A stretch of 50,449 bases of DNA from Bacteroidia bacterium (GTDB taxonomy: Bacteria; Bacteroidota; Ignavibacteria; UBA10030). Shown here one piece after another: positions 1 through 20,839 of the stretch (its first letter is position 1; each line of letters opens with the position of its first letter). The stretch spans positions 1 to 50,449 of the forward strand of contig BQML01000013.1 of the NCBI GenBank assembly GCA_022180565.1, read 5' to 3'. The position numbers and the translations under genes are program-made. The notes under the pieces were generated by a model, which was not told the DNA's origin, made no database searches, and saw only the letters and a list, made by a program, of their open reading frames with translations.

Positions 1-33
1 GTCTCTTCGCCATTGAGAGAACGGCAGTCATGA
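1..33 (+). CDS. C-terminal tail of an upstream gene (partial)
   Basis: The frame starting at base 1 stays open for ten codons and ends in TGA at 31-33. It overlaps the ATG of the next gene (ATG at 30) in the same ATGA arrangement seen at many later junctions of this operon. This suggests the operon began left of the window. Only ten residues are visible, so the product cannot be named and the frame could be chance. Confidence 0.35.
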   Translation, partial: VSSPLRERQS

Positions 34-674
34 GTGCTCCGATTGAAAGGCCTCGAAAGATTGTTGCGATTGGTCTGAACGATGCCCTCCATGCAGCCGA
101 GGGAAAATTCCAGGTCCCTGAGGAACCTATCATCTTCCTGAAGGCGGGCTCATCGGTTATCGGCCCGGAAGAAACGGTGAGGATCCCCCGCGGCATGGGA
201 CGTATGGACCACGAAGTCGAGCTGGCCGTGATCATCGGCACAAAAGCCTCCGGAGTGAACCGAAGAAACGCCTACGCGTATATCTCGGGCTATACCATCG
301 TTAATGACGTCAGTGCGAGGGACCTCCAGACAAAAGACCTGGAAAAGAAGCATCCCTGGTTCAGATCGAAGAGCTTTGACACCTTCACACCGCTGGGCCC
401 GTGGATGGTAACGGCCGATGAGATCAAACCTCCGGTTCATCTGGATATCGAATGCCGGGTCAACGGAAAGGTCAGACAAAAAGCAAATACGCGCGATATG
501 GTGTTCGATATTCCGACGGTGATCGAGTTCATTTCCAAACATATCACCCTGGAACCCGGCGACGTGATATCGACCGGTACCCCCGAGGGCATCGGGCCGA
601 TCAGGCACGGCGATACGATGGTGTGCAGGATCCACAAAATCGGAGAACTGAGGAATCCTGTCCGCAACAAATGA
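30..674 (+). CDS. Fumarylacetoacetate hydrolase (FAH) family protein
   Basis: This 214-residue protein has the length of the short FAHD1/YcgM-like members, which hydrolyse or decarboxylate acyl-pyruvates and related 2,4-diketo acids in the cytoplasm. The metal site is visible: HEVEL supplies E62 and E64, and NDVSARD supplies D93. The C-terminal part carries the usual STGTPEG(I/V)GP loop. It is the first complete gene of the operon and overlaps the next gene by 4 nt (ATGA). Together with the enolase-superfamily protein and the downstream SDR it could form the last steps of a non-phosphorylating sugar-acid route, where FAH enzymes cleave 2,4-diketo-3-deoxy acids. The family is certain from sequence; the substrate is inference. 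Confidence 0.9.
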   Translation: MSAPIERPRKIVAIGLNDALHAAEGKFQVPEEPIIFLKAGSSVIGPEETVRIPRGMGRMDHEVELAVIIGTKASGVNRRNAYAYISGYTIVNDVSARDLQTKDLEKKHPWFRSKSFDTFTPLGPWMVTADEIKPPVHLDIECRVNGKVRQKANTRDMVFDIPTVIEFISKHITLEPGDVISTGTPEGIGPIRHGDTMVCRIHKIGELRNPVRNK

Positions 675-1780
675 GCATTGACAGAATTACGCTGACGCAC
701 GTTCGGGTTCCCCTGGTCGAACCGTTCCGGATCAGCAGTGGTCAGGTCAGCTGCAAGGATGGAATCCTTGTTGCGGTCGATTCCGAAGGGGTAAGGGGCT
801 ACGGGGAAGCCTCCCCCATGGCCGGGGCGTTCTATTCCGCCGATACGCCTGAAAGCGTTTGGAAGGACCTTACTGATATTCTGATCCCGGCGGTTCTCCA
901 CCACGGAAGCAGTTCGGTCGCGGAGATCAACAAGGTCCTGAAGAGCGCTGGAGGCAGTCCATTCGCTCGGGCAGGCGTTGAGACGGCGTTTTGGGAGCTG
1001 GAAGGCCGAAAAACGAACAGGCCGCTGTGGAATCTGCTGGGAGCCGAAAACAAGCCTGTGGCGTCAGGCCTTGCGGTCGGCATCTATTCGAGCATTCCCA
1101 AGCTGCTGGACGCTGTCGGAAGATTCATGCAGGAAGGGTACAAGAGAATCAAAATCAAGATCCAACCCGGGTGGGATTTGGGCCCGCTGGAAGCAATGCG
1201 GAAGCTCTACCCGGAGACGCCTCTGATGGTGGATGCAAATTGCGCCTATACGCGGAACGACATCGCCCATCTGAAGAAACTCGACACCTTCGGATTGATG
1301 ATGATCGAACAACCGCTCCCCAAGGACGACTTGGAAGGACACGCGAGTCTCCAGGCGGCGTTGCAAACAGCGGTTTGTCTCGATGAAAGCGTGGAAGATG
1401 TTGGTTCGCTGGAGAAAGCTCTCGCCCTGAATGCGTGCAAGATCGTCAATATCAAGATCCAACGAGTGGGCGGTTTGATGAATGCGAAGGCCATCCACGA
1501 TCGGTGCAAGGAAAAGGGTATTCCGGTGTGGGCCGGGACCATGCCGGAACTCGGCATCGGCGGAGCGCAAACACTGCATTTGGCGATGCTCGAAAATTTT
1601 GCCTTTCCCACGGACGTAGAGTCCTCGGCTCGCTGGTTTACCAGCGAGATCATTGATCCACCTTTGCAGGTGGAGAACGGGATTCTTCGGGTGGCCCCTG
1701 GCCCGGGAAACGGTCACCGTGTGAACCCGAATACCGTAAAAAAATGGACGGTGAGAACAGCGGAATTCAGCTTGTCCTAA
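671..1780 (+). CDS. Enolase-superfamily protein, OSBS / N-acylamino acid racemase / dipeptide epimerase type
   Basis: The 369-residue product is an enolase-superfamily enzyme of the muconate lactonizing subgroup, as shown by paired catalytic lysines rather than a Lys/His pair. Visible elements are the KIKIQPG strand (KxK), DANCAYT (metal Asp), IEQPL (metal Glu), LDESV (metal Asp) and VNIKIQRVGG (second Lys). The C-terminal part, with MPELGIG and a conserved proline/glycine tail, is most like o-succinylbenzoate synthase/N-succinylamino acid racemase. The start at 671 overlaps the FAH stop; a longer upstream reading would run through FAH and is rejected. No other menaquinone gene is nearby, so racemisation or epimerisation of an N-acyl amino acid or dipeptide is more likely than MenC. 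It lies four genes upstream of an M20 amidohydrolase that could deacylate such a product. Confidence 0.85.
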   Translation: MSIDRITLTHVRVPLVEPFRISSGQVSCKDGILVAVDSEGVRGYGEASPMAGAFYSADTPESVWKDLTDILIPAVLHHGSSSVAEINKVLKSAGGSPFARAGVETAFWELEGRKTNRPLWNLLGAENKPVASGLAVGIYSSIPKLLDAVGRFMQEGYKRIKIKIQPGWDLGPLEAMRKLYPETPLMVDANCAYTRNDIAHLKKLDTFGLMMIEQPLPKDDLEGHASLQAALQTAVCLDESVEDVGSLEKALALNACKIVNIKIQRVGGLMNAKAIHDRCKEKGIPVWAGTMPELGIGGAQTLHLAMLENFAFPTDVESSARWFTSEIIDPPLQVENGILRVAPGPGNGHRVNPNTVKKWTVRTAEFSLS

Positions 1781-1784
1781 CGTC

Positions 1785-2837
1785 ATGCGTAACCCTCTAC
1801 AGAACAGCATGCCTCTCCGAACAACGTTCATAGGGCTCTCTCTTTCTCACCCGCTTCTTGTTGCTTCGGGGCCGGCGAGTCATGATGTCAACCAAATCGC
1901 TCTGGCGGAGGAACAGGGTGCCGGTGCCGTAGTGCTGAAGACGGCCTGTTCAGATAAGTACGAGCATATGAGATACTGGCCTCGTCCGAGGTATAAACTG
2001 CTGGACTGGGACAAGCAGATTGGAGGAAGGTCACGACTATTCACGCTCTATTCGTACGAACAGGGATACAGCGGCACTCTGGCCGACTATTGGGCCTTCA
2101 TCGAGGCGTGCAAAGAAACCGCAAGAATACCCATCATCGCGAGCATCTTTGCAGACGCGGCGGAAGATTGGGCTGATCTTGCGGTGCGTGCGGAGGACAG
2201 CGGAGCCGATGCCATTGAGTTGGACATCTCCTCACCGCACCGTCCGGGCACGCTGGATTTCGAACACACGTTCATTGCCGCCATATGGGCGGTGCGCAAG
2301 GCCGTGAAGTTCCCGGTTGTTGTCAAACTTGCAGCGGGTCCGGATGTCCTCCAACAGGCAATGAGTGCTCAGGAATGCGGAGCGGATGCGCTCACGCTCT
2401 GTAATCGCATCAGGGGATTCGATGTCGATATCGAATCCCAACGCCCGATTCTCCACGGCAATTTTGCTGGTGTCGGAGGACCGTGGGCCAAATATTACAC
2501 CTTCCGCCATGTTGCCGAAGCGGCCCAGCATGTACAAATTCCGATTAGTGCGACGGGTGGCGTGATGACCGGCGAAGATGTCATCAAATATATTCTCCTG
2601 GGCGCTACAACAGTGCAGATCCTTTCGGTGATCCTGGTGAACGGATGGGAATCGATCTCCAAAATCAACCAGGAGGTTGAGGCTTACTGCAAACGAAAAC
2701 AGATTCATTCACTGCAAGATCTCCGGGGAGAAGCTCTCAAACATATGACGTCCCCCGATAACATCATACGCTGGTCTGGCGAGTCAAAGATGGGACCGCG
2801 CAACAGGCGGAAGACGCCTCCGGGGATATCGTCATGA
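1785..2837 (+). CDS. Dihydroorotate / dihydropyrimidine dehydrogenase-like flavoprotein (PreA catalytic-domain type)
   Basis: This 350-residue protein is a TIM-barrel FMN flavoprotein of the DHOD/dihydropyrimidine dehydrogenase family. It shows the N-terminal NPLLVASGP-like strand, an ELDISSPHRPG active-site loop, VVKLA, and the phosphate-binding SATGGVMTGEDVIKYILLGA region near the C-terminus. The loop has Ser where class 1 DHOD and DPD have their catalytic Cys, so the acid/base chemistry may be class 2-like or altered. PreA normally has a C-terminal two-cluster ferredoxin domain; here that part is a separate gene starting at 2834, overlapping by 4 nt. No PreT-like NADPH flavoprotein is visible. 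Either the ATG at 1785 or that at 1809 could be the start; neither has a good Shine-Dalgarno. Likely an electron-transferring reductase or oxidase of an unsaturated cyclic or amide intermediate; substrate unknown. Confidence 0.8.
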   Translation: MRNPLQNSMPLRTTFIGLSLSHPLLVASGPASHDVNQIALAEEQGAGAVVLKTACSDKYEHMRYWPRPRYKLLDWDKQIGGRSRLFTLYSYEQGYSGTLADYWAFIEACKETARIPIIASIFADAAEDWADLAVRAEDSGADAIELDISSPHRPGTLDFEHTFIAAIWAVRKAVKFPVVVKLAAGPDVLQQAMSAQECGADALTLCNRIRGFDVDIESQRPILHGNFAGVGGPWAKYYTFRHVAEAAQHVQIPISATGGVMTGEDVIKYILLGATTVQILSVILVNGWESISKINQEVEAYCKRKQIHSLQDLRGEALKHMTSPDNIIRWSGESKMGPRNRRKTPPGISS

Positions 2838-3160
2838 CGGTCCGAAAAAGAAAATATCCGGGGTTGGATCCTCTCCCGCCCCCCTTTGCCGACCGGTATC
2901 CGCCTATAGCTGTTGTGGAAGAGGATTCCTGTATTGCATGTGACCGATGCCCGCCGGTATGCTTCTTCGACGCCATCGTTATGGAAGATCGACCGCAACA
3001 TAAGTACAAAAGAACCGCCGTCATTCTTGAAGAGAATTGCACGGGGTGCGGACTGTGCTTTGAGGCATGTCCGGTTGACGCGATCAAATGGATCCCCGAC
3101 AAGGCTGGTCTTCCGGGACCCTCGAAATCGTCTGATTCTGTGGAAGATACCGACTTATGA
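2834..3160 (+). CDS. 2[4Fe-4S] ferredoxin-type protein
   Basis: The 108-residue protein holds two complete cluster motifs: CIACDRCPPVC at about residues 33-43 and CTGCGLCFEACP at about residues 65-76. Its ATG overlaps the stop of the DHOD-like gene and its own stop overlaps the ATG of the cyclase gene, so the three are probably translationally coupled. In E. coli PreA and mammalian DPD an equivalent module is fused to the DHOD domain. The parsimonious role is electron acceptor/donor of the flavoprotein encoded just upstream. The proline-rich N-terminus and acidic C-terminal tail are unremarkable. Confidence 0.88.
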   Translation: MTVRKRKYPGLDPLPPPFADRYPPIAVVEEDSCIACDRCPPVCFFDAIVMEDRPQHKYKRTAVILEENCTGCGLCFEACPVDAIKWIPDKAGLPGPSKSSDSVEDTDL

Positions 3161-3774
3161 AGATCATCGACCTCACGCACCCGATCTCCAATGCGATGCC
3201 GGTGTATTTCCCCTGGCATCCCGAGACGAGACTTGAACACACGGCGAACTATAAGGACCATCAATGCGTGGTTACACGTGTTACGGTGGGGACGCACAGC
3301 GGAACCCATATCGACGCACCGTCACATGTGCTCGAAGGGAAACCGACCATCGATCAGTATGCGCCGCAGTTGTGGTATTCGAAAGCGCAGGTGCTGGATT
3401 TCACGCCGCGCGAACCGAAAAAGGCGATCACGGCGGATGAAATAAGACGGAAACTCAAGAAGAAAGGCCTGGGCGTTATTCTCAAGACAGGATGGGATGT
3501 GCGGTTCGGCAAACCCGACTACTACGCAACCTATCCGCCCCTCTCCAAGGAGGCTGCGGAGGCTCTTGTGCAACTGAACGTCCCCGTCATCGCGGCTGAT
3601 ACGCCTTATCCTCTGGATGTGCATTACATCTGTCTGGGACGCGGAATTCCCCTCATTACCAACATCAACAACACAGCGCGGCTCACGGAAGACATTGTCA
3701 CGCTGATCGCCGCTCCGCTTCTGATCGAAGGTGGGGATGGCGCCCCTGCTCGTGTTCTCGCGGTAATCGAATGA
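3157..3774 (+). CDS. Cyclase family protein (kynurenine formamidase-like metal hydrolase)
   Basis: This 205-residue protein belongs to the cyclase family (Pfam Cyclase, kynurenine formamidase and isatin hydrolase type). The metal-binding signature HSGTHIDAPSH is at about residues 48-58, the family's hallmark HxGTHxDxPxH. The C-terminal part has the usual conserved D-TPYPLDVH segment. Family members hydrolyse N-formyl or cyclic amide bonds with Zn or Mn in the cytoplasm. It is coupled to the ferredoxin upstream and the M20 peptidase downstream by 4-nt overlaps. This fits ring or amide hydrolysis after the reductive step by the DHOD-like protein, but the actual substrate is not identifiable. 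Confidence 0.88.
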   Translation: MKIIDLTHPISNAMPVYFPWHPETRLEHTANYKDHQCVVTRVTVGTHSGTHIDAPSHVLEGKPTIDQYAPQLWYSKAQVLDFTPREPKKAITADEIRRKLKKKGLGVILKTGWDVRFGKPDYYATYPPLSKEAAEALVQLNVPVIAADTPYPLDVHYICLGRGIPLITNINNTARLTEDIVTLIAAPLLIEGGDGAPARVLAVIE

Positions 3775-4910
3775 TGACCCAGAAGGAACCGGTCGTGCGT
3801 CTCCTGGCCGACCTCGTGGCCATTCCGAGCATGAATCCGATGGGGCAGAATGTCCCTCCGGACAGGTATTCGGAAAGCGGGGTTGCTTCTTACCTAAGAG
3901 AATATTTGAAAAGGCGAGGTATAGACGCTGAATCATACGAGGTAAGCCCGGGGAGACCCAACGTCGTCGCCTTCATTGATGTGAAGGCTTCCGAAACGCT
4001 CCTGCTCGAAGCCCATATGGACACCGTCCACGCAGAGGGAATGGCGATCGATCCGTTTGATCCAGTTGTCAAGGACGGTAGGCTTTACGGGCGCGGCTCA
4101 TGCGATACGAAAGGCTCGATCGCGGCATTTATCGGCAGTGTCACTGAGTTGCTCCGGAGGGGAAGCAAATTCAAGTACAATGTTTTGCTCCTGTTTGTGG
4201 CCGATGAAGAGTACAGATTCATGGGGGCACAGGCGGCAGTGAGAGGGGGACTGAGGGCCGACTTCGGCATTGTCGGTGAGCCGACAAGTCTCGCAATTGT
4301 GCGCGCTCACAAAGGGGTGACACGCTGGAGGATTCGGACTGAGGGGGTGGCAGCGCATTCCGCCTTTCCCGAACGCGGACGGAACGCCGTGTACATCATG
4401 GGGGAAGTCATCCGTCGTCTTGAAACGTATGCGGAGGAGCTTGCCCGGAGCAAATCCGATCCGGACCTGGGGCAACCGACGATCAGCATCGGTGTGATTC
4501 AAGGCGGTTCAGCGGTCAATGTGGTACCGGACTCGTGCTGGATTGAAATCGACCGAAGAACGCTCCCTGGCGAACAGATCGAGGAGATTCTTGGCGCCGC
4601 GGCCGCAAAACTGGGAGACCTTCCCCATGTTCGAATGGATCCGCCGTATCTCTCAGTTCAGGGAATGAGCGTGGCGGAGGACGATGCGGTGGTGAGGATG
4701 CTTTCAAATGCTCTGGCGAGAGGCGGAACAAATGCTGTGAACACGGTTGCCCCGTATGCAACGGACGCGGGAATATACAACGCAGAGGGAATCAAGACGG
4801 TGGTCTTCGGCCCAGGGGATATCGCACAAGCCCACACTGCGGCGGAATTCATCGAGCTCGATCAGGTGAAGAAGGCTGTTGATGTCCTGAAATGCCTGAT
4901 GGCTGCGTAA
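3771..4910 (+). CDS. M20 family metallopeptidase (ArgE/DapE/acetylornithine deacetylase type)
   Basis: The 379-residue product has the full M20 metal and catalytic set: HMD at 82-84, GRGSCDTKG with the bridging Asp at 112, DEE at 145-147 with the general-base Glu, VGEPT around 169-172, and a C-terminal AHTAAEF His near residue 353. The central dimerisation-domain segment AHSAFPERGRNAV is present. M20 enzymes hydrolyse N-acyl, N-carbamoyl or succinyl amino acids in the cytoplasm. The gene overlaps the cyclase stop, and its TAA overlaps the possible ATG of the lyase gene. With an N-acylamino acid racemase-like protein in the same operon, an N-acyl amino acid or amino-sugar substrate is a reasonable guess. 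Confidence 0.9.
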   Translation: MMTQKEPVVRLLADLVAIPSMNPMGQNVPPDRYSESGVASYLREYLKRRGIDAESYEVSPGRPNVVAFIDVKASETLLLEAHMDTVHAEGMAIDPFDPVVKDGRLYGRGSCDTKGSIAAFIGSVTELLRRGSKFKYNVLLLFVADEEYRFMGAQAAVRGGLRADFGIVGEPTSLAIVRAHKGVTRWRIRTEGVAAHSAFPERGRNAVYIMGEVIRRLETYAEELARSKSDPDLGQPTISIGVIQGGSAVNVVPDSCWIEIDRRTLPGEQIEEILGAAAAKLGDLPHVRMDPPYLSVQGMSVAEDDAVVRMLSNALARGGTNAVNTVAPYATDAGIYNAEGIKTVVFGPGDIAQAHTAAEFIELDQVKKAVDVLKCLMAA

Positions 4911-7219
4911 TGAACTGGAGACCAAAAATTGTTTGGAGAATCATGGCCAAAAGACAAATTGCCGGGTTGAGGTTGGTCGGTTTCCTCACGCTTTTCGGGA
5001 TGGTGGGCCCCATGAGCCACACCAGCCTGGCACAGAAAACGTTGTACCTTGAAAAGATCCGGGAGTCGGCTGAAAAGGGCTGGAAGGAGTACCCGGGGTG
5101 GATCGAGCAATGGAAGAAATCGGCGAAAACAAGCGTGCTGTGGGGGTACGACGCGCCGGGAGCGCCTCCTTACCTTGCTGCCGTGCTGGGATTCCTCTAC
5201 GAAGAGACCCGCAACCGGGAATATGCGCGTCGTGCAGCCGAAATTCTGCTCAACTACGGTCGCCTACGCTCCGAATTGCCCAAAGGATACGAGAACACCC
5301 GTGCAGAGTACAAAGAGGGCGTGCCCGCAATCTCCAATTTCTTCTTCATGGCTCCCTACATTCGAGCCTACTTGCGCGTCAAGGATGCAGGTGTGCTCAA
5401 CCCAGAAGCCAGAAGAATCGTAGAACGCGATGTTGCAGGGAGCGCTGATTTCATCTTCCATTTTCCTGAATGGGGTGCGCATAACAGGGCCATCCTGAGG
5501 GCCGAAGCCCTTCTCTATGCCGCTCTTGCAATCCCCGACCACCCCAACGCGGGAAAATGGCGAAAGATGGCGAACGTCATTGCGCGCGATAACCTGCACT
5601 CCTGGGAAATCGAGGATGCCACAGGATATCACGGTGTCTGGCTGCTGTCTCTGTATTCGTACGCAGAAGCGTCCGGAAACACGGAATTCTTCGATTCTCC
5701 GATTACCCACTACTATCTTGATTACTATTTGAGACTGATCGGTCCCCAGGGCACCATTCCTGAGTTCGGCGATTCCAGATGGAATTCAGGATGGGAATCG
5801 CTTCGGTTTGTGCCGGTTTTCGAAAGAGGCGCGGCGGTTCGGAAGGATCCGGAACTGAAATGGGCGGCGAAGACCATCTTTGAGAGACGTCCCCGATCTT
5901 CAGCCATCCTTAGTGTCAGCGAGGGATACTCGCTCTCGGAAGCGTATCGATGGTGTGATGAAACCATCCAACCGCGACAGCCGCAAAGTCTGAGCCAGGA
6001 AGTCCTGGATGATGTGGTGGGAAAGAAGATCGTCTTCCGGAACGGTTGGACGGAAGGCAGTACCTATATGCTGTTGAATTATCGGGACGAAGGAGACGGC
6101 GGATATCAGAGCCGGGAATTCCTCCGCAGGACCATCTCCGTGGAAGAGGAAAAGATGCATCATGGACACTCGGATGAAAACAGCATCGCCTTGTTGATGA
6201 AGAATGGCTCGGTCCTTCTGCACGATGGTGACTACCGCAGCGATCTTCCCAGCGGACCCTACGGCGCGTGGAGACAGGACTATTTCCACAACAGGCTCGT
6301 GACGCGGTTGAACAAGCGCGACCCCAGGCAAACAGTGCTCGAATTTGTCCGGAATTCCGGCGCTTATCGGACAGTGCGCACGCAAAAGGTGGATTTTCTG
6401 AGCCTGCAGGATGTGGACATGAGCAGGACCCGTCTGATTGATGAGGTGCTGGGTTATCAATGGGACCGGGCTGTCACCTACCTGAGGGGGCAGGACTTCT
6501 TTGTCGTCGTGGACGGCATCAAGATCTTGCGATCAGACTACTTCACGTTTGTCAACTTTTGGCACGGCCAGCAGATCCTGGAAAAAGGTGATGACTATGT
6601 TGTGCTGGCGACAGACTCTGTTCCCGGTTTTCATTTTTCACAAGATCAGGCTCTGATCGTCTATTTCCCCGAAACCTATGGCAAATCGGCAGGGAGCGAG
6701 CAGATCAATCGCAGCAGGCAGACGGAGTGGGCGGTCTATCAGACTCAGTCGAGTCACTACAAGGCAGGCGACACTGAGGTATTCGTCACCGTGTTGTACC
6801 CCGTCAGCCGGCGATCCATCGACGCGAAGAAAATCCGGTCTTCCATCAATGTGGTTCGCTCGTCAAAGCCCTATCGCGCGGTGGGTGTGGAGATCAGAGA
6901 GGATGGCACGGTAACGACCCTGGGAGTGAAGATCGATCTTGAAATGGATCTCGCACGGGAGAACATCAGGCCGAGATATCTCTATGACCTCGGAAGAGTG
7001 CAGTATGGAGAGTTTGAAACGGATGCCGATTTTCTGTGTGCAACTGCATCGGGGAAAAGCGTGAAGTACAGCGCCTCGAATGTACTGCGGGTCATACACA
7101 AGGGAAAAACCCTCATGGAAGCCCTGCCCAACACACACGGCCTCCAGCTCGATGGTACTTCGGAACGGATTGGATTCGCGAAGTGGAGGTTGTGGGAGGA
7201 TGACATTCTTGATCAGTGA
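4910..7219 (+). CDS. Heparinase II/III-like polysaccharide lyase, exported
   Basis: A protein of about 769 residues with a hydrophobic signal segment (GLRLVGFLTLFGMVGP) ending near SLAQ. The start is either ATG 4910, sharing a base with the M20 stop, or ATG 4943 with a GGAG just upstream; both leave a plausible signal peptide. The N-terminal half is an alpha/alpha toroid of the alginate lyase/heparinase type, with the EWGAHNRAIL segment. The C-terminal half is the beta-sandwich seen in PL12/PL15/PL17/PL21-type enzymes, with HHGHSDENS, HDGDY and YFHNRLV. Such lyases cleave uronate-containing polysaccharides by beta-elimination, leaving a 4,5-unsaturated uronate, the substrate of the GH88-type enzyme at the end of this operon. 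The precise PL family and polysaccharide are not assignable by eye. Confidence 0.85.
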   Translation: MNWRPKIVWRIMAKRQIAGLRLVGFLTLFGMVGPMSHTSLAQKTLYLEKIRESAEKGWKEYPGWIEQWKKSAKTSVLWGYDAPGAPPYLAAVLGFLYEETRNREYARRAAEILLNYGRLRSELPKGYENTRAEYKEGVPAISNFFFMAPYIRAYLRVKDAGVLNPEARRIVERDVAGSADFIFHFPEWGAHNRAILRAEALLYAALAIPDHPNAGKWRKMANVIARDNLHSWEIEDATGYHGVWLLSLYSYAEASGNTEFFDSPITHYYLDYYLRLIGPQGTIPEFGDSRWNSGWESLRFVPVFERGAAVRKDPELKWAAKTIFERRPRSSAILSVSEGYSLSEAYRWCDETIQPRQPQSLSQEVLDDVVGKKIVFRNGWTEGSTYMLLNYRDEGDGGYQSREFLRRTISVEEEKMHHGHSDENSIALLMKNGSVLLHDGDYRSDLPSGPYGAWRQDYFHNRLVTRLNKRDPRQTVLEFVRNSGAYRTVRTQKVDFLSLQDVDMSRTRLIDEVLGYQWDRAVTYLRGQDFFVVVDGIKILRSDYFTFVNFWHGQQILEKGDDYVVLATDSVPGFHFSQDQALIVYFPETYGKSAGSEQINRSRQTEWAVYQTQSSHYKAGDTEVFVTVLYPVSRRSIDAKKIRSSINVVRSSKPYRAVGVEIREDGTVTTLGVKIDLEMDLARENIRPRYLYDLGRVQYGEFETDADFLCATASGKSVKYSASNVLRVIHKGKTLMEALPNTHGLQLDGTSERIGFAKWRLWEDDILDQ

Positions 7220-7274
7220 TACGTGTCCACGGTCCGATATCCGATAATCAACAACCAGACTCAACACTGAACCT

Positions 7275-8102
7275 ATGACGACTGGAACAACTCTCCGACT
7301 CCGACGCATTTGGAAACATGAGCGCACGGTAATCATTCCCTTTGATCACGGCCAGTACGGCGGAGTGCCGGATGGGCTGGAGCATCCGGAACAATTGACT
7401 GAGCAGATCGCCTCGACGCCGGCCGATGCCGTGTTGGTGACACCGGGCGTTCTAAGCAGAATTGCGCCCTTTCTTGGCTCGTTGGGAGTGGTGCTGCGGC
7501 TCGATGGTGCGTTTACAAAATACTCGCCTTCCGCCAGTGACTATGAACCGGTGTGTACCGTCCCGAATGCCGTTCGATTGGGTGCTGATGCAGGCATTGT
7601 GTTTACCTTTGTAGGTACGGAGTTCGACGCGGCTTCCCTGGCCAGATTGGGTGCCGTGTCCCAGGACGCCGAACAATGGGGACTCCCCTTGGTGTCGGAG
7701 GTGCTCGCACCTTCACTACTGGACAACCACTTCGAACGCAAGATCTTCAAAGTCGCGGGCGGCGAATCGCTGGAGGAGGAGACCACGACCGTCGCGAGGA
7801 TCGCCGCCGAACATGGAGCGCAGATTGTGAAGACAAGGTACTCCGGTTCCGTCGATGCCTTTAGGCGGACGGTGGAGACGTGTGGAGCAAAGGTCATTGT
7901 TGCCGGAGGGCCGGTTGGAGCAGAGAAGAGCGACGAGGGGCTCCTGAAACTCGCCCATGACAGCACTCAAGCCGGTGCCGCCGGTATTGTGTTCGGACGG
8001 TCGGTCTGGCAGCGCCCGAATATGAAAAAGCTGATTCAGGCCCTGTGCGCGATTGTGCACGAAGGGGCAACCGTCCCAAGCGCCTCCAAACTGCTGAAAT
8101 GA
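7275..8102 (+). CDS. Class I aldolase of the DeoC/FbaB/LacD superfamily
   Basis: The 275-residue protein is a class I (Schiff base) aldolase of the DhnA/FbaB type. It opens with VIIPFDHGQYGG, like archaeal-type fructose-bisphosphate aldolases, and has the lysine strand IVKTRYSG at about residues 187-194. A phosphate-binding VAGGPVG loop and GIVFGRSVWQ follow. No metal-ligand set of class II enzymes is seen. Its stop overlaps the ATG of the PfkB kinase, which would supply a phosphorylated sugar for cleavage; together they make a tagatose/fructose 1,6-bisphosphate-like or deoxy-sugar acid phosphate branch. A gap of about 55 nt without other features precedes it. Confidence 0.85.
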   Translation: MTTGTTLRLRRIWKHERTVIIPFDHGQYGGVPDGLEHPEQLTEQIASTPADAVLVTPGVLSRIAPFLGSLGVVLRLDGAFTKYSPSASDYEPVCTVPNAVRLGADAGIVFTFVGTEFDAASLARLGAVSQDAEQWGLPLVSEVLAPSLLDNHFERKIFKVAGGESLEEETTTVARIAAEHGAQIVKTRYSGSVDAFRRTVETCGAKVIVAGGPVGAEKSDEGLLKLAHDSTQAGAAGIVFGRSVWQRPNMKKLIQALCAIVHEGATVPSASKLLK

Positions 8103-9040
8103 TTCTCACCGTCACGCTGAACGCAATGCTGGACAAGACGGTCCAGCTTACATCACTGCGCCGCGGCACGATCCAGAGGGCTACAGGGCTCAGCATGGTG
8201 GCCGGCGGAAAAGGCATTAACGTCTCACGGCAACTCAGGATCCTGGGTGTCTCGACGATGGCGACGGGATTTCTGGGCGGGGAGACCGGAGCGATGATCC
8301 GAAAATCGCTCGAGATCGACAAGATCACGCATGATTTCGTTGAAACAGCATCTTTGACCCGCGAGGGGGTAACTTACCGGGAGGCGAACGGCATGGTGAC
8401 CTCGGTCTTCGAGCCGCCCGGCAAGGTGACCGAGCGGGAGGTGCAGTTGCTCTTGAGAAAAGTCGGCGAGATGATCCCCCAGACCTCCTGGGTTGTGTGC
8501 AGTGGGAGTTCGCCGTCTCATGAGGCAGACGATGTGTTCCGCCGCGCAATTGCCGAAGCTCGCCGGCAAGGCAAGAAGACCGTCCTGGATTCCTACGGCT
8601 TACCTCTCAAAAAGGCATGGAATGAGGCGCCGACGCTCGTCAAGCCCAACCGCCGTGAGTACGCAACAACGTTCGGGGAAACCCTGAGGGGCATTCGCTC
8701 GATCCGCGGCGCCATCGATGAGGCCCTTGAACTCGGTATCGAGTATGTCGTGGTGACCGACGGAGCCGGGCCGACGTATGCAGGGTCGCGAGAGGGATAT
8801 TGGAAGGTTACAAGCCCGCGAGTAAGGGCCATCAATCCTATCGGTTCCGGGGACGCGATGGTGGCGGGCATTCTGTATGCATTGGAACAGGGACATGATT
8901 TCGAGCGGGCGCTGGCATTCGGGTCGGCCGCGGGTACGGCCAACGCACAGGTTTGGGATGTGGCTCGTTCTCCGCTTGCCGAGATTACCCTGCTCGAGCC
9001 GAAAATCCGGGTCGAACGGCTCGCCTGGAAGCGGACATGA
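8099..9040 (+). CDS. PfkB-family sugar kinase (1-phosphofructokinase / tagatose-6-phosphate kinase type)
   Basis: The 313-residue protein starts MILTVTLNAMLDKT, the classic FruK/LacC opening. It has the glycine-rich AGGKGINVSRQL substrate loop, KPNRREY in the middle, and the C-terminal NPIGSGDAMVAG signature with the catalytic Asp. These features place it in the 1-phosphofructokinase subgroup of PfkB, which makes sugar 1,6-bisphosphates from phosphosugars with ATP. The ATG at 8099 overlaps the aldolase stop by 4 nt; a longer reading upstream would only cover the end of the aldolase gene. The kinase-aldolase pairing supports a phosphorylative end of the pathway, yielding triose phosphates. Confidence 0.9.
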   Translation: MILTVTLNAMLDKTVQLTSLRRGTIQRATGLSMVAGGKGINVSRQLRILGVSTMATGFLGGETGAMIRKSLEIDKITHDFVETASLTREGVTYREANGMVTSVFEPPGKVTEREVQLLLRKVGEMIPQTSWVVCSGSSPSHEADDVFRRAIAEARRQGKKTVLDSYGLPLKKAWNEAPTLVKPNRREYATTFGETLRGIRSIRGAIDEALELGIEYVVVTDGAGPTYAGSREGYWKVTSPRVRAINPIGSGDAMVAGILYALEQGHDFERALAFGSAAGTANAQVWDVARSPLAEITLLEPKIRVERLAWKRT

Positions 9041-10062
9041 CAACGAAGGCCATGAGATTCCTCGAGGCGCTTGAATGCAGGACGCCCGATCGTGTTCCCT
9101 TCGTTCCCGCGATCTATGAACATAAGGGTTGGTTCATCGGTCAGACGCCTTCGGCCATTGCGCGCGATGCGGCGCTGTTGACCGAGGCCGCACTCTCGGA
9201 ATACGAGCAGGTGCGGGCCGATGCCTTGGTGATCGGCGTCGACGTGTACAACGTTGAGGCCGAAGCCGTGGGAAGCAAAGTGACGTTCTTCGACGATACG
9301 GGAATACCGGCTGTTGCGGAAGAAGATGCGATTCTTCAGGGAGGAAGGTCGGTCCATGAATGTTCCGTTCCCAATCCCCGCAAGGACGGCCGGATGCCGC
9401 TGTTTGTGGAGTCTGCCAGACGTGTCGCGGGGAAGCTCGGAAAATTCGTGCCGATCAGGGGCGCCGTATCGGGTCCGTTTTCGCTCGCGGCGAATCTCGC
9501 GGGACCTCTGAATCTTTTTACGATGACCCTGTCGAATCCACAGCGCGTACACGACACCCTGGACTTTTCCGTCCGCGTTGCCTATGAATATGGCCGGGCA
9601 TTCATCGAGGCCGGATGCGGCGTGATCGTTTTCGATTCACAGGCTTCCCCCGATCTTCTGTCCCCGGCGATGTATAAGGAATTCGTCCTGAGGCCGACAC
9701 GAGACCTCATCTCTCGGTTTCGGGCGCTTGGTGTTCGTCATGTGCCGCTGATCATCGGAGGAAATACGACTGCTATTCTTGAATACTATCTGGAAACGGG
9801 CGCGAACAACATCCTGTGTGATTTTTCGGCAGATGTATCGAGATTCCTTGAAGAATGCCGGCAGCATCGAGTGGCATTCCGGCGTAACATTGATTCCCGG
9901 GATTTCTTGACGATTGCTCCTGATGAAGTTTATTGCCGGGCACGGACAGCCATCGGTGAATCCCGCGGATATTCTGGCTTCATTCTCGGCACAGGCGTCG
10001 TACCGTACGGCACGGCGCTTGAATGCCTGCTCGCGGCAGGAACAGCCGCCCGGAGCCGATAA
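9037..10062 (+). CDS. Uroporphyrinogen decarboxylase-like protein, non-heme subfamily
   Basis: This 341-residue protein has the UroD/MtaA fold pattern: the opening TPDRVPFVPAIYEH, the GPFSLAANLAG strand, the acidic strand with FDSQAS, and a late GTGVVPYGT loop. It is not a heme enzyme by context, since no other porphyrin gene is nearby. Corrinoid methyltransferases of this superfamily bind Zn through an HxCGN motif and a later Cys. Here the corresponding positions read VPLIIGGNT and ILGTGVVP, so the expected cysteines are absent. UroD-like genes of this divergent kind occur in sugar operons, where their reaction is often unknown. The start at 9037 overlaps the PfkB stop by 4 nt. Confidence 0.78.
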   Translation: MTTKAMRFLEALECRTPDRVPFVPAIYEHKGWFIGQTPSAIARDAALLTEAALSEYEQVRADALVIGVDVYNVEAEAVGSKVTFFDDTGIPAVAEEDAILQGGRSVHECSVPNPRKDGRMPLFVESARRVAGKLGKFVPIRGAVSGPFSLAANLAGPLNLFTMTLSNPQRVHDTLDFSVRVAYEYGRAFIEAGCGVIVFDSQASPDLLSPAMYKEFVLRPTRDLISRFRALGVRHVPLIIGGNTTAILEYYLETGANNILCDFSADVSRFLEECRQHRVAFRRNIDSRDFLTIAPDEVYCRARTAIGESRGYSGFILGTGVVPYGTALECLLAAGTAARSR

Positions 10063-10106
10063 CCAACAATCAATCCCCCCACGAATCAACTCTCGAGGAG
10101 ATTCTG

Positions 10107-12473
10107 ATGCCTTCGTTGAATGATATTCTTTCCCAAGCAACAGCCATTCGTTATGGAACCCGCTTCGCGGTTGAAAAGACGGTAGCCGAAGAACTTGGAT
10201 CGATGGTCGGTGCACGCGTTATGCTGTCACCGTCCGACTCTTCCGAGGCGGAGCAAGGGGTGATTCTCATTAGCGTCGCCAATGAGAAGAAAAAATGGGG
10301 GGCTCTTCATCCTTCCCTCCAGGAATCGGAGGAATGGATGATGGTCCGGGTGAAGGAGGGAAAAGGGATGGAAATCAGGGCATCGCGGCCTCATCTTTTG
10401 TATTCGGTGTTCTCGACGATGAGAGAAGAGTGGAAGACAATGGATGTTGCCGCCTTTGCACAGGGAAAGATCCTGAAACCGGCTTTTTCCAACCTTCGGC
10501 CTGTTTATGATCTCTTTCTCACCCAACATGCCCGTTCTGTCAGAAACTTTGACCGGCCCGGATATTTCAGACAACTTGCCCGGCTGGGTTTCTCTCATGC
10601 CGAGGTAAACGGTCTCGCATTCCCGGTTCCGTTCGAACAGGGTCCGAAGGGTGAGCTCCTGCACCGCTTCTACACGTATTGCCCCGCCCTGGATCAATTC
10701 GTCAGCAGCCGCCTTACCAAGGGCTTTTACGACGAGGACTACTTGCAGGCAAATCTCAACTATTTGAAAACCAATGCGGAGTATGCGGACAAGTACGGAT
10801 TGACCCCCGGCATCGTGTGTTTCGAGCCCAGGTCTGTTCCCGAGGAACTGCTCATGCGCTATCCGGTTCTCCGCGGCGCCAGGGTTGATCATCCACTTCG
10901 GAGTTTTCGTCCGAGATTCAATCTGTCGATCGCCCACCCGGTCGTGCGAGAGCACTATGCGGAAATGGTCGAAAATCTTCTGAAACAGGTACCCAAGCTT
11001 GGCTACATGTCCGTCTGGTCGAACGACAGCGGTGCAGGCTTCGAGTACACAAGCTCCCTCTATGTTGGAAGAAACGGAGGGGGCTATGTGATCAGGGAAT
11101 GGAAGGGCGACAAGGAGATCGCCGAAGCCGCCGCCCTCAATCTTGTTCGCTACTTGCGGACACTTCGGGATGCCGGAAGAAAGATAAACCCTTCCTTTCG
11201 AACCCTCATCCGCCTCGAACCCTTCTGGGCTGAGCACGACTATATCTGGAGAGAGCTGGAGGACGGACTTGATGTCGAGGTGTCATCCCTTCAAACCAAG
11301 GGCTGGTCGCTCTCGTACAAGCACCCGAAGTACCCTGAGGCGCGGGAAATTCATCAAATGGCGCTATACAATCACTTCACAAAAGAAGAAATCCCGCTCA
11401 TGAAGGAACTGAAGAGAAAAGGAGTCGGGACCGACGTCTATTTCACTCCGGGAATCATCTGGAATCATGAGCCGTTGATGGGTGTGGCTTTTCCCTGGCT
11501 CGTGTACGACAAGATCAAAGACATGGCCGATGCGGGAGTGGAAACCGCCGCCCTTCTCGGCGGGGCCGTGCCGGAGTCCTTCGCACCCTACAACATTAAC
11601 CAGGAACTCGTCAGAGCATTCCAGCAAAACCCCGCACTTGATCTCGAATCGTTCCTCAAAGAAAAGGCCGCATCGTGGGTTGGAGCAGAACTCGCCGGTG
11701 ATTTGGTCAGAGTCTGGAGGCACTCCGACGAGGCTTTCAGATCCTTTCCGATCCCGATCTGGATCTATGCCGCCTGGGGCGTGTGGTACCGACTCATGGT
11801 GCGTCCTATCGTGCCGAATATCGAGGCGATTCCGGAAACGGACAGGGCGTATTACGAGGACTTTCTGCTTGCCACCAGCCACAACCGGACTCGTGTGGAT
11901 TTCCGGTACGATGTCGGCTTCGACCTTGTCGATCCAGCCCATGCCGCGTTCTGTGTCGATGTCATGAACAAGGATTTGTTCCCTGAGATCTTCAAAGCGC
12001 TGGATCTGCTCGAGCGGATGAAGAAAAAGGCAGGCACGTATGAAGCATGCATCACCGATCAGCTTGACAGAATGAAAGCGCTCAACAGCTGGTACCGTAC
12101 CCAGCGGAACGTGACCCAGTGGGTCGCTTCGGTGCATGGGTACTTTGAGGCGAAGGACAAGGCCGAGAAGAAACGCCACCGCGAAGCACTAAAATCGATG
12201 GTGTTGGATGAGATCGAAAATGCAAAGGAACTGCTCGCGCTGTGGGAGACGTCAAAGACGAACTGGATGATCGTGTCCGAGGTGGGTGAAACAACGTTCA
12301 TCTACTATTCGAATTTTGGTGATCTCGTGAAGCGAAAGATCGAGCTTATGAGAGGACGCGAAAACGACGAACCGTACGTCGACCCGAATTTCCAATGGCG
12401 TGTGCCGGGGTTTTCATTCACGGAAGAACCCGAACGCGGCGTGTCGATTCTGCCGGCCCCTCTTCATGGATGA
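10107..12473 (+). CDS. Large putative glycoside hydrolase, alpha-glucuronidase/GH20-like architecture, family unclear
   Basis: A 788-residue protein with no signal peptide. The ATG at 10107 is chosen because GAGGAG lies 6 nt upstream. Residues 1-135 resemble the small alpha/beta domain that precedes the barrel in GH20, GH67 and GH84 enzymes, ending with the LLYSVFSTMREEW helix. Residues about 150-500 look like a TIM barrel, with strands around SHAEVNGLAF, LTPGIVCFEP, KLGYMSVWSNDSGAGFEY and GVGTDVYFTPGI. The C-terminal 250 residues are mainly helical and rich in charged residues. The SNDSG and EP segments are candidate catalytic strands. I do not recognise a named family; cytosolic cleavage of oligosaccharides made by the lyase is a context-based guess. 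Confidence 0.6.
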   Translation: MPSLNDILSQATAIRYGTRFAVEKTVAEELGSMVGARVMLSPSDSSEAEQGVILISVANEKKKWGALHPSLQESEEWMMVRVKEGKGMEIRASRPHLLYSVFSTMREEWKTMDVAAFAQGKILKPAFSNLRPVYDLFLTQHARSVRNFDRPGYFRQLARLGFSHAEVNGLAFPVPFEQGPKGELLHRFYTYCPALDQFVSSRLTKGFYDEDYLQANLNYLKTNAEYADKYGLTPGIVCFEPRSVPEELLMRYPVLRGARVDHPLRSFRPRFNLSIAHPVVREHYAEMVENLLKQVPKLGYMSVWSNDSGAGFEYTSSLYVGRNGGGYVIREWKGDKEIAEAAALNLVRYLRTLRDAGRKINPSFRTLIRLEPFWAEHDYIWRELEDGLDVEVSSLQTKGWSLSYKHPKYPEAREIHQMALYNHFTKEEIPLMKELKRKGVGTDVYFTPGIIWNHEPLMGVAFPWLVYDKIKDMADAGVETAALLGGAVPESFAPYNINQELVRAFQQNPALDLESFLKEKAASWVGAELAGDLVRVWRHSDEAFRSFPIPIWIYAAWGVWYRLMVRPIVPNIEAIPETDRAYYEDFLLATSHNRTRVDFRYDVGFDLVDPAHAAFCVDVMNKDLFPEIFKALDLLERMKKKAGTYEACITDQLDRMKALNSWYRTQRNVTQWVASVHGYFEAKDKAEKKRHREALKSMVLDEIENAKELLALWETSKTNWMIVSEVGETTFIYYSNFGDLVKRKIELMRGRENDEPYVDPNFQWRVPGFSFTEEPERGVSILPAPLHG

Positions 12474-14229
12474 GTTCAACACGGTGAACGCGGTCGACTA
12501 CGGCCTGATCGCGTTCTACTTCATCGCGATCATCTGGGTGGGCATCTATGCGGCCCGCAAGAGCAGAAACACGGACGAATATTTCCGCGGGGGCGGAAAG
12601 ATACCGTGGGTCGTAGCTGGACTTTCCAACTGGGTGTCGGGATACTCGGCGTTCATGTTCGTTGCAGCGGCGGGTTTCACGTACCTGAACGGCCTCGGGG
12701 CCGCAGTGATCTTTACGTCGGCCTTCTGGGCATATCTGCTCGGCTACTTTGTCTACGGAGTCCGGTGGAGAAGATCAAGAATCCGCTCTCCGTTGGAGTT
12801 CCTGACAAAACGCTACTCCGCGTCGACAACGTATTTTTACTCCCTGACGGCGATCATTCCCCAGATTGTCGGAATCGGGCAGGGATTGTACATCCTTTGC
12901 ATTTTCATCTCAACGGCGCTCGGCTTCAGTGAGCAGGATTTTGATCTCGGCCCCGTCACGATCACCGGTTTCCAGCTATCGATTATCCTTACGGGCATCG
13001 TCATGGTCGTCTACTCTGTCGTCGGAGGTCTCTGGGCGGCGGTGCTTTCCGACACTGTTCAGGCTGTCATCATCACCGTCATGACCCTCGTTATCTTTCC
13101 CGTTTCGTTCATGTATCTGGGGCAAGGTCAAGGATTCTTGGCGGGGATCGACCGTCTGCTGGCGGAAGCCCCCGAGGGCTATTTTCGTCTCTCCGGCGAT
13201 ACGGCCAATCCGCTCTTTCTTGTTGCCTATCTGATCAACGTGATCCTCGGCTATAACGTGGGGTGGCAGATTGTCCAGCGCTACCATAGCGTGCCCGATG
13301 AACGCGATACAAAGAAAATGGCTGTCCTCTGCGCGGTGCTTTCCGTGCTGGGACCGCTTCTCTGGATCCTGCCGGTCATGGCCTCGCGCATTATCTTTCC
13401 GAATATCGACTCCCTCTGGCCGTCCTTTGCCGTGCCTGCGGAAGCTTCGTTTGTGAGCCTGGCGCTCAAGCTCCTGCCGCACGGTCTCATAGGTTTCGTA
13501 GTATCCGCCATTCTCTCCGCCACGCTCGGGCAAGCCAACGACTCGTTCAACTGGCTGGCGGCGACACTGACGCGGGATGTCTATGCGCCGGCCAGGGAAA
13601 AACTGACCGGCCGGCCTGCATCGGATCGTTCGCTGCTGCTGATCGCCCGCATGACCATGCTTGTCGTCGGTATTCTCGGAATTGCCGTTGCTTTGTACAT
13701 TCCGCAGTTCGGAGGAGCGTTCCAGTTTGCCCTGGTGTTCTATTCGCTTACGGCAGCGTTCACCATGCCCGTTGCCCTCGGCATCATCTATACGCGCACG
13801 CCCTGGTGGTCGGGTATCGCTTCATGCTCCGCGGCTATCATAGTGGCACTTGTCCTGATGATCACCGATCTTTGGGGCGAGCATGCTTTCATCCGCAACA
13901 TGCTGAGCGAAACCGTAGTTGCAGCCGTCGTCTTCTTCGGCTCGTCTCTCTGGTTCAGGGAGAGCGATCCCAGGAACCAGTCCATCCTCGCATTTGAGCG
14001 AGACCTGGCAACGCCGGCTCTCGATACGGGCACGGAGCAAAAATACGAAGGAATGAAGATTTACGCGCTGATCGGACGCATTTGCTTTGTGCTTGCCGGC
14101 ATCCTGCTGGCCTGCTCATTCCTGCCCTCCACACAGGACGCACCGGCAATTCTGAATGCCGCCGCCGCCGGGCTTCTGTTTCTTACGGGATTTGCCGCAT
14201 GGAAAGCGTCGAGGGCGGTCGCACCATGA
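12466..14229 (+). CDS. Sodium:solute symporter family transporter
   Basis: The 587-residue protein has roughly 13-14 hydrophobic segments and the SSS family core: FRGGGKIPWVVAGLSNWVSGYSAFMF near residues 42-67, the VYSVVGGLWAAVLSDTVQAVI segment, and the ILSATLGQANDSFNW region. It lies in the inner membrane and would import a small solute, such as a sugar acid, unsaturated disaccharide or amino-acid-like compound, with sodium. Its ATG overlaps the preceding glycosidase-like gene by 8 nt. It is the only transporter in the operon, and no SusC/SusD pair is present. A long N-terminal extension from 12400 would run through the upstream gene and is rejected. Confidence 0.9.
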   Translation: MDEFNTVNAVDYGLIAFYFIAIIWVGIYAARKSRNTDEYFRGGGKIPWVVAGLSNWVSGYSAFMFVAAAGFTYLNGLGAAVIFTSAFWAYLLGYFVYGVRWRRSRIRSPLEFLTKRYSASTTYFYSLTAIIPQIVGIGQGLYILCIFISTALGFSEQDFDLGPVTITGFQLSIILTGIVMVVYSVVGGLWAAVLSDTVQAVIITVMTLVIFPVSFMYLGQGQGFLAGIDRLLAEAPEGYFRLSGDTANPLFLVAYLINVILGYNVGWQIVQRYHSVPDERDTKKMAVLCAVLSVLGPLLWILPVMASRIIFPNIDSLWPSFAVPAEASFVSLALKLLPHGLIGFVVSAILSATLGQANDSFNWLAATLTRDVYAPAREKLTGRPASDRSLLLIARMTMLVVGILGIAVALYIPQFGGAFQFALVFYSLTAAFTMPVALGIIYTRTPWWSGIASCSAAIIVALVLMITDLWGEHAFIRNMLSETVVAAVVFFGSSLWFRESDPRNQSILAFERDLATPALDTGTEQKYEGMKIYALIGRICFVLAGILLACSFLPSTQDAPAILNAAAAGLLFLTGFAAWKASRAVAP

Positions 14230-15152
14230 AACACGAAAGACAACGCATCGTGAGATTCGCCGCCGGTCAGCTTCCCGCCGAAGCACCGTCAGGGACGAGA
14301 CGTGGAAGCAAGGAGTGGGTGCTGGAGGCCATTGTTGGAATGATCCGCGACGCGGGCGAGAGGGAATCGGACGTTGTTCTGTTTGGAGAATACGCCAATC
14401 TGTTTCACCGTTCTCTTTCACCCAGAAAAGAGGACTATGAAGCCGATGCCATCCCGGGTCCGTTTGTGGAAGCCGTTGCTGCCGCTGCGAGACGATACAG
14501 AATCAATGTGGGATTGCCGGTGTTGGGCCGATACAGGCGTACGGTCTCCAGCTACGTAGTGTATCTCGACCGCAAGGGATCGCTGGCGGGAGTGTATCAG
14601 AAAACACATCCGACGATTCAGGAACAGAGCCTGGGCATCAGGGGGGGAAGGGATCTGAAGATTATCGAACTGGATTTCGGTCGTGTCGGAACCATGACGT
14701 GCATGGATATCGAGTATCCGGAAGTGGCGCAGACCCTGATGCTGAGGGGGGCCGAAGTGCTCTTCTTTCCGCACGTCCAATCAGGGTGGGGAGAAGTAAA
14801 TTGGGAGATCCGCTACCGCGCACGCGCGATCGATACGGGCCTTCCGATCGTTTCGGCTTGCTACGGGTATCCAGAGGGAGAATGGAGGCCGGGCAAGATG
14901 TTGGGCCGAAGCGGCGTTATCGGCAGGGACGGAGGAATCCTCGGCGATCTGGGCCGATCCATCGGCATCATCACTTGCGATGTGGACCTTGTGAAAGGAC
15001 GCCGTACCGAATTCTATTTTCCGATGAAGCTGGATCGAACGCTCGCCGTGAAAGCATCTCGCCGCCCTGAGTTGTACAGAGACCTGGCAAACCCGTCGTT
15101 CCGGAAGAGAGCGTTGAGACTCTTGAAGAAGAGTACGAGAAGAACATCATGA
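14226..15152 (+). CDS. Carbon-nitrogen hydrolase (nitrilase superfamily amidase)
   Basis: The 308-residue protein shows the complete nitrilase-superfamily triad: Glu55 in FGEYAN, Lys126 in VYQKTHP, and Cys159 in MTCMDIEYPE. The members hydrolyse C-N bonds in amides, N-carbamoyl compounds (beta-ureidopropionase, N-carbamylase) or nitriles in the cytoplasm. The ATG at 14226 overlaps the symporter stop by 4 nt. With the PreA-like flavoprotein and the cyclase-type hydrolase in the same operon, an N-carbamoyl or amide intermediate is suggestive, similar in logic to reductive pyrimidine catabolism, but no dihydropyrimidinase is seen, so this is only a hypothesis. Confidence 0.88.
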   Translation: MKHERQRIVRFAAGQLPAEAPSGTRRGSKEWVLEAIVGMIRDAGERESDVVLFGEYANLFHRSLSPRKEDYEADAIPGPFVEAVAAAARRYRINVGLPVLGRYRRTVSSYVVYLDRKGSLAGVYQKTHPTIQEQSLGIRGGRDLKIIELDFGRVGTMTCMDIEYPEVAQTLMLRGAEVLFFPHVQSGWGEVNWEIRYRARAIDTGLPIVSACYGYPEGEWRPGKMLGRSGVIGRDGGILGDLGRSIGIITCDVDLVKGRRTEFYFPMKLDRTLAVKASRRPELYRDLANPSFRKRALRLLKKSTRRTS

Positions 15153-19505: not shown

Positions 19506-19509
19506 CGGG

Positions 19510-20772: not shown

Positions 20773-20839
20773 ACCTGTCGTCAACCGATTTCCACTTGCC
20801 GTTTGGCATTTGAAGCCATTGGCAAGGGGAACATTCAAA

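Follow-up and report, generated by a model that had tools for sequence, protein, structure and literature searches.

Gene organization of the locus

The window, that is, the entire 50,449-nucleotide stretch of DNA analysed here (contig BQML01000013.1 of assembly GCA_022180565.1), features an operon consisting of a run of same-strand genes, several of them with overlapping ends. A flavoprotein of the DHOD fold (BARREL, 1785..2837, + strand, ORF of 350 aa), identified by a Pfam match to DHO_dh (105 bits), by AF2 models and by comparison with the FMN domain of DPD, is followed by a stand-alone 2[4Fe-4S] ferredoxin of 108 aa (FDX, 2834..3160, + strand; Pfam Fer4_21, 48.7 bits), and the two genes are coupled by an ATGA overlap. 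A DHOD-fold barrel with the loop DISSPHRPG and a separate ferredoxin gene were also what the original prediction had described, and both ORFs are indeed present. As judged from orthologue starts in the alignment, translation of the barrel probably begins at ATG 1809 rather than at 1785, and residue numbers given below count from ATG 1809.

Upstream of this pair lie genes for a FAH-family hydrolase of 214 aa (30..674, + strand), with the HpaG C-terminal domain and 2,4-didehydro-3-deoxy-L-rhamnonate hydrolase as its closest NCBIfam models, both below cut-off, and for an enolase-superfamily protein of the N-acylamino acid racemase/OSBS type (ENOL, 662..1780, + strand). Downstream, a PF04199 "cyclase" metal-dependent hydrolase (CYCL, 3157..3774, + strand) and an ArgE/DapE-family deacylase (M20, 3771..4910, + strand; TIGR01910, 255 bits, above the cut-off of 217.6) are joined to FDX and to each other by further ATGA overlaps, at 3157 and 3771. 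These are followed on the same strand by a large protein of 775 aa with weak heparinase III likeness (HEP, 4892..7219, start uncertain), a DeoC/LacD (DhnA-type) aldolase (7275..8102), a PfkB sugar kinase of the 1-PFK subfamily (8045..9040; TIGR03168, 266 bits, above the cut-off of 216.4) and a URO-D/MtaA-type methyltransferase (8953..10062). HEP matches no Pfam family, and its likeness to heparinases derives from the NCBIfam model HepC (29.6 bits) and from PDB entry 4fnv (E 0.0087). A second large conserved protein of the window (10023-12473, 816 aa) has no Pfam match and no PDB match at E 0.01, and it is possible that this protein and HEP represent new polysaccharide-active families. Two further ORFs of the window, at 15980-17395 (471 aa) and 23285-24823 (512 aa), are also without Pfam matches. 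A label "GH3(41)" in the window most likely reflects an out-of-frame match to an overlong GH3 reference, and was not counted as a gene.

The absence of a PreT-like flavoprotein near the pair, as originally predicted, was confirmed among the genes scanned around it. A flavoprotein of the lipoamide-dehydrogenase type is located approximately 27 kb away, and adjoins pyruvate dehydrogenase genes.

Conservation and distribution of the cassette

The family as defined here comprises 25 barrels, i.e. that of the window and those of 24 loci with a readable loop, with 57-73% identity to the window protein; two additional loci in which the contig end cuts the barrel (L041 and L089) were excluded from the alignment, the tree and the ferredoxin counts. 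The active loop of the window barrel, D139-I-S-S142-P-H144-R-P-G147 (2223..2249, + strand), embedded in the wider context ELDISSPHRPG, is kept in all family members as DISSPH[R/K]PG. FDX is found downstream of the barrel and on the same strand in 25/25 loci whose contig extends there; at one of these, L030, a sodium:solute symporter (SSF) gene (2091-3905) separates barrel from ferredoxin. Such conservation of loop and partner gene rules out chance or a sequencing artefact. ENOL, the first gene of the conserved cassette, is located upstream of the barrel in all 23 loci that extend far enough, the contigs of L030, L033, L038 and L088 ending earlier.

Other neighbours are more variable. The FAH gene is present at 16/27 loci; HEP homologues and M20, counting contig ends among the misses, are present at 18/27 each. 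HEP is absent from the examined stretches of L034, L039 and L082-L084, and the cassettes of one genome family (f20, L077-L081) consist of ENOL, BARREL and FDX without FAH, CYCL and M20 in the examined stretch. Since HEP, M20, CYCL and FAH are each missing at some loci, only ENOL and FDX qualify as obligatory neighbours of the barrel, and the three genes constitute a core cassette within glycan or sugar-acid catabolic operons. Neighbours of the cassette in L078, a locus of the same genome family, are an IclR regulator, a HEP homologue, a DHDPS-family aldolase and a protein of TonB-receptor type; other loci add genes for GH3, ROK, cupin, DUF455, MtaB and corrinoid proteins. Methanol methyltransferase genes of MtaA, corrinoid and MtaB type occur in the glycan operon at many loci (e.g. 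8953-10062 in the window, 10383-12836 in L030 and 14910-16790 in L034), and glycan methyl groups may serve as a carbon source.

When 60 relatives were searched with the window protein, 12 were found to encode an orthologue of 67-74% identity, and a thirteenth (G001) an orthologue fragment at a contig end; next-best identities fall to about 30%. Profile searches at E 1e-45 yielded family members in 26 of the 391 genomes covered for the class, own genome counted, and in 3 of 395 genomes sampled across the phylum, namely the genome under study and two others of the same order. Phyla beyond this one were covered by two narrow peptide patterns only, which retrieved 16 loci from named genomes. All 16 are metagenome-assembled genomes (MAGs) with titles referring to Ignavibacteria, Ignavibacteriae or Ignavibacteriales, to Bacteroidetes or Bacteroidota, or simply to a "bacterium", and the 25 readable loci all derive from the same class (Ignavibacteria-type MAGs). 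No family member was found in the viral contigs searched. The plasmid search returned 181 records, all below 60% identity. Of three examined, two fall with DHOD class 1B, and one from Agrobacterium leguminum (L114) is placed loosely beside DHOD-like proteins. The latter, a 354-aa DHOD-fold "hypothetical" protein (6989-8053) with the loop FNIGTPY and an Arg at the same place as in the family, is encoded in a TRAP transporter/DUF6282/aldolase cluster, and is possibly another catabolic DHOD-fold enzyme.

The enolase partner

ENOL exceeds the cut-off of TIGR01928 (263.6 bits, cut-off 200.65), its best solved relatives in the PDB are N-acylamino acid racemase/OSBS enzymes, and the catalytic set of this group (K-x-K, D, E, D, K) is kept in 23/23 sequences. 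It differs from these enzymes near the active site, with IKIQRVGG and GTMPELG in place of IKPGRVGG and GDMGETG in the PDB match, and in being coupled to flavoprotein and ferredoxin genes. Assignment as MenC (OSBS), considered for the TIGR01928 match, is unlikely because a search of the own genome for menD gave no match at E 0.001. Complex I-type (nuo-type) genes are present in the window (18379-22599), although the genome gave no menD match.

Fold and phylogenetic placement of the barrel

The AF2 model of the barrel built from 46 sequences has a mean pLDDT of 83.7 and a pTM of 0.84, with residues 66-70, 145-147 and 217-219, in the regions of the active-site lid, below 50 pLDDT; it was used in place of an earlier, weaker model with 13 rows (pLDDT 71.5). 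Among Foldseek matches ranked with VIA-align, the FMN domain of DPD comes top with a Z of 39.7 (2.1 A over 309 residues), and DHODB next with a Z of 34.8 (2.6 A over 297 residues). Judging by their titles, close structural matches include DPD with Cys671 changed to Ser.

For phylogenetic analysis, 61 sequences were used: 25 of the family, 13 DHOD-like, 12 fused PreA-type and 7 class 1B proteins, together with single representatives of class 1A, of E. coli PreA, of E. coli class 2 PyrD, with class 2 as outgroup, and of pig DPD. The analysis thus covered DHOD classes 1A, 1B and 2, PreA and DPD. In the first tree, the family forms a single clade (support 99), with the DHOD-like PRK07565 group as its sister (support 100), and the two together adjoin PreA/DPD (support 99). 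A mixture-model tree has the same shape, with support of 97/93 for the family, 100/99 for family plus DHOD-like group, and 99/91 for the separation of PreA/DPD from the family. The tree program flagged long branches, those of the class 1A row and of E. coli PyrD among them. In the AU test, a grouping of the family with class 1B was rejected (p 0.003), whereas one with PreA/DPD to the exclusion of the DHOD-like group was not (p 0.158). A firm placement within a characterised DHOD class, envisaged in the original prediction as the outcome that would speak against it, is not what the trees indicate for classes 1A, 1B and 2.

Curated models lead to a similar picture. The best-scoring NCBIfam model for the window barrel is PRK07565/NF005741 (DHOD-like; 183.6 bits, cut-off 303), and the barrel of L078 also falls short of it (163.1 bits), compared to 507.7 bits for control L017. 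Scores were likewise below cut-off for PRK07259 (class 1B; 160.2 bits, cut-off 269), PRK08318 (PreA; 141.6 bits, cut-off 335), the archaeal PyrD model (141.4 bits, cut-off 330), TIGR01036 (class 2; 28.4 bits, cut-off 200) and the best PRK05286 model (class 2; 47.4 bits, cut-off 366). Three fused PreA-type homologues scored 447, 432.6 and 658.5 bits with PRK08318, and the controls (L017, L090, L107, L095, L105 and L106) exceed the cut-offs of their own groups. On these comparisons of sequences, the barrel shares ancestry with the DHOD-like PRK07565 group and would form a new family of its own within the DHOD/DPD superfamily, which both trees place outside DHOD classes 1A, 1B and 2 and also, with the reservation of the AU test, outside PreA/DPD, class 1S lying beyond this comparison.

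The PRK07565 group, whose NCBIfam name is merely "dihydroorotate dehydrogenase-like protein", is sister to the family in both trees and shares with it an Asn-Arg pair at DPD positions 736-737. It differs in its extended, NxYYIPTDP-type loop, in Tyr (12/13) or His at the position of flavin-contacting Lys574, and in Asp, Asn or Glu at DPD position 671, where the window barrel has Ser; identity to the window protein amounts to 27-30%. The 13 DHOD-like proteins of relatives (L017-L028 and L109), with their odd active site and Arg at Thr737, form a group without assigned function.

A DHOD for pyrimidine synthesis of the class 1S (Sulfolobus) type is suggested by the listing of that class as a heterodimer with a Ser base (PMC10395836, Table 1). 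We regard this as extremely improbable given the score with the archaeal PyrD model, the presence of another PyrD, of class 1B type, in the own genome, the catabolic nature of the neighbouring genes, and the Asp and Arg that replace Asn and Thr in the substrate site, as detailed below.

Active site

In DPD, Lys574, Thr575, Ser670, Lys709 and Asn736 are contacts on the flavin side, and Asn609, Asn668, Asn736 and Thr737 contact the pyrimidine. These positions were mapped on the barrel using pig DPD in the numbering of its PDB chain. The five flavin-side residues are kept in 25/25 family members. Of the pyrimidine-contact set (Asn609, Asn668, Asn736 and Thr737), the family keeps Asn736 alone: Asn609 is replaced by Ser (21 members) or Ala (4 members), Asn668 by Asp (25/25) and Thr737 by Arg (25/25). 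The latter corresponds to Arg200 of the barrel, in the pair Asn199-Arg200 (2403..2408, + strand) which is invariant in 25/25 family members and 13/13 DHOD-like proteins. Ser142 occupies the position of the loop Cys of DPD and PreA, and Cys671 of DPD is thereby replaced by Ser in 25/25 members. That this loop carries Cys in PreA and DPD, as originally stated, holds for pig DPD, E. coli PreA and 12/12 fused PreA-type relatives. Glu611 and His673 are retained throughout the family (25/25), so that part of a pyrimidine-type site persists. Docking reported in PMC13111326 has Asn609, Glu611, Thr737, Asn736 and Cys671 surrounding a ligand. Taken together, the family seems to have an intact flavin site and to have lost most of the residues that read the pyrimidine. 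The suggestion in the original prediction that the substrate is something other than a pyrimidine has become probable, since Asn609, Asn668, Cys671 and Thr737 are replaced in 25/25 members.

If the barrel nevertheless serves as a pyrimidine dehydrogenase, it would be a ferredoxin-fed uracil reductase with Ser as acid/base, comparable to PydAc, for which ferredoxin-fed reduction is documented (PMC7332683). Retention of Glu611, His673, Asn736 and the flavin-side residues fits such a role, as do the fold, closest to that of DPD, and the C671S DPD mutant structures among the near matches. The replacement of Asn609, Asn668 and Thr737 and the position of the family outside PreA/DPD in the trees nevertheless make it quite improbable. 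In addition, no hydantoinase-type dihydropyrimidinase was found among the scanned neighbours, and in G011 and G045, two of the relatives, there is a fused protein of PreA type as well.

These data also bear on the description of the pair as a "split PreA". The two genes and the DHOD-fold barrel stand, and the likeness to PreA/DPD extends to the fold (Z 39.7), the flavin-side residues, Glu611, His673 and the 2[4Fe-4S] partner. However, the description disagrees with the trees, the curated cut-offs, the residues of the active site and the kind of ferredoxin, and a PreA simply cut in two was rejected as the simplest reading, even though the AU test does not reject a grouping with PreA/DPD. Whereas FMN barrel and 2[4Fe-4S] part form one chain in PreA/DPD, they are encoded by two genes in 25/25 readable loci here, with a ferredoxin of another type, Ser for Cys, and replacements at Asn609, Asn668 and Thr737, and the window pair lies without PreT or pyrimidine-degradation genes nearby. 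Fused PreA-type proteins of relatives include a group distinct from E. coli PreA, FusA (L090-L094 and L107), in which the loop reads ECSFSCPQGNIG, Asn668 is replaced by Ser and Glu611 by Asp.

Ser as such is no novelty, being the catalytic base in DHOD class 2 as well as class 1S (PMC8520639, PMC10395836). Class 2 enzymes share with the barrel the Ser at the base position, but are membrane-bound quinone enzymes, and class 1B enzymes differ in having a Cys base. Neither Ser for Cys nor the use of ferredoxin is thus new with the barrel, both being known elsewhere; the label "split PreA" overrates these two points, and underrates the altered substrate site and the constant pairing with an enolase.

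The ferredoxin partner and electron supply

FDX contains two Cx2Cx2Cx3C cluster motifs, CIACDRCPPVC (2930..2962, + strand) and CTGCGLCFEAC (3038..3070, + strand), with all eight Cys invariant in 25/25 sequences. Its N-terminal stretch K-Y-x-G-L-x-P-x-P-P is also conserved, and Tyr, Gly, Leu and two Pro are invariant in 25/25. Among NCBIfam models, FDX scores higher with RnfB (51.9 bits) than with the iron-sulfur end of PreA (38.1 bits), and its best solved relatives in the PDB are polyferredoxins such as FwdF. It was found once in the own genome (E 1e-10). This genome also encodes a full pyruvate:ferredoxin oxidoreductase (PFOR, 1896.9 bits), so reduced ferredoxin should be available.

Electrons would most likely flow in the reductive direction, from reduced cellular ferredoxin via the dedicated 2[4Fe-4S] protein to the flavin of the barrel, presumably FMN. 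The conserved flavin side and the fixed pairing with FDX are consistent with such a path. Alternatively, the barrel may be a dehydrogenase that passes electrons from its substrate through ferredoxin to electron carriers of the cell. DHODs operate in this oxidising direction, FDX resembles electron carriers of the RnfB, NuoI and FwdF type, and a nuo-type cluster is found within the window; nevertheless, we consider oxidation rather unlikely, as the closest fold is that of DPD, a reductase, and PFOR supplies reduced ferredoxin, neither point being decisive for direction. For the preferred, reductive direction, PydAc of Clostridium chromiireducens offers a parallel, as a ferredoxin-dependent DPD in which the FMN barrel is fed by ferredoxin and which is described without FAD/NADPH domain (PMC7332683). 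Direct use of ferredoxin, as suggested in the original prediction, has thereby a published precedent. PydAc differs in having two fused Fdx domains and in lying beside PydB and PydC in a Pyd gene cluster (same source), neither feature being seen here.

Proposed function

We give an even chance to the barrel being an FMN-dependent, ferredoxin-linked oxidoreductase of a family of its own, with a carboxylate that resembles orotate without being a pyrimidine as its substrate. Hydrogen would be added or removed across the alpha-beta carbons of this substrate, which would have N or O on the alpha carbon as well, with hydride going to or coming from the carbon adjoining the carboxylate. Arg200 may bind the acid group of the substrate, and Ser142 would act as acid/base, giving or taking a proton by analogy with the Ser of class 2 DHOD (PMC8520639). 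The environment of the reacting bond would then be that of C5=C6 in orotate, yet in a molecule other than a pyrimidine. Orotate itself may be seen as, in effect, a cyclic N-acyl dehydroamino acid. The substrate could belong among N-acyl amino acids or unsaturated uronates, because both share with orotate the arrangement of carboxylate, hetero-atom and C=C bond. N-acyl amino acids are substrates of racemases and M20 enzymes, and unsaturated uronates are products of polysaccharide lyases. The probable source of the substrate is a glycan (uronic or amino-sugar acid) degraded by the surrounding operon, and ENOL may act on the same alpha carbon as the barrel. Operons with enzymes of pyruvate-forming type, i.e. 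the FAH gene at 16/27 loci and the DHDPS-family aldolase of L078, were counted in favour of this proposal, as were the HEP homologues at 18/27 loci.

A route through cyclic amides and N-acyl amino acids, built like reductive pyrimidine or hydantoin catabolism, would assign the genes differently. Barrel and ferredoxin would serve as the reductase of an unsaturated lactam or N-acyl dehydroamino acid, with CYCL opening the ring, ENOL racemising the N-acyl amino acid, and M20 removing the acyl group. The proximity of the enolase to N-acylamino acid racemases, the M20 score above the ArgE/DapE cut-off, the PF04199 assignment of CYCL, the ATGA overlaps linking BARREL, FDX, CYCL and M20, and a CN_hydrolase gene at 14082-15152 are all in keeping with this route. 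We consider it fairly unlikely, however, as the cassettes of L077-L081 occur without CYCL or M20 in the examined stretch, and a DHDPS-family aldolase and an IclR regulator take their place in L078.

Returning to the glycan-acid reading, it is tempting to speculate, although tentatively, that ENOL, BARREL and FDX form a self-contained catabolic module, in which a racemase-type enolase and a ferredoxin-driven Ser/Arg reductase act one after the other at the alpha carbon of an unsaturated acid that comes from a glycan. An unsaturated uronate or an N-acyl dehydro acid would be candidates for this acid, at the same tentative level. Our literature search, with most subscription journals outside its coverage, retrieved no paper on such a cassette. 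Screening of substrates is practical, given that the family has clear limits, that all its members share the active-site changes and that its partners are known. If the proposed function is correct, the DHOD/DPD fold would have been recruited beyond pyrimidine metabolism in glycan-degrading bacteria, with a dedicated ferredoxin gene as electron donor, and the family would provide a first functional handle on its sister group PRK07565, with which it shares the Asn-Arg pair.
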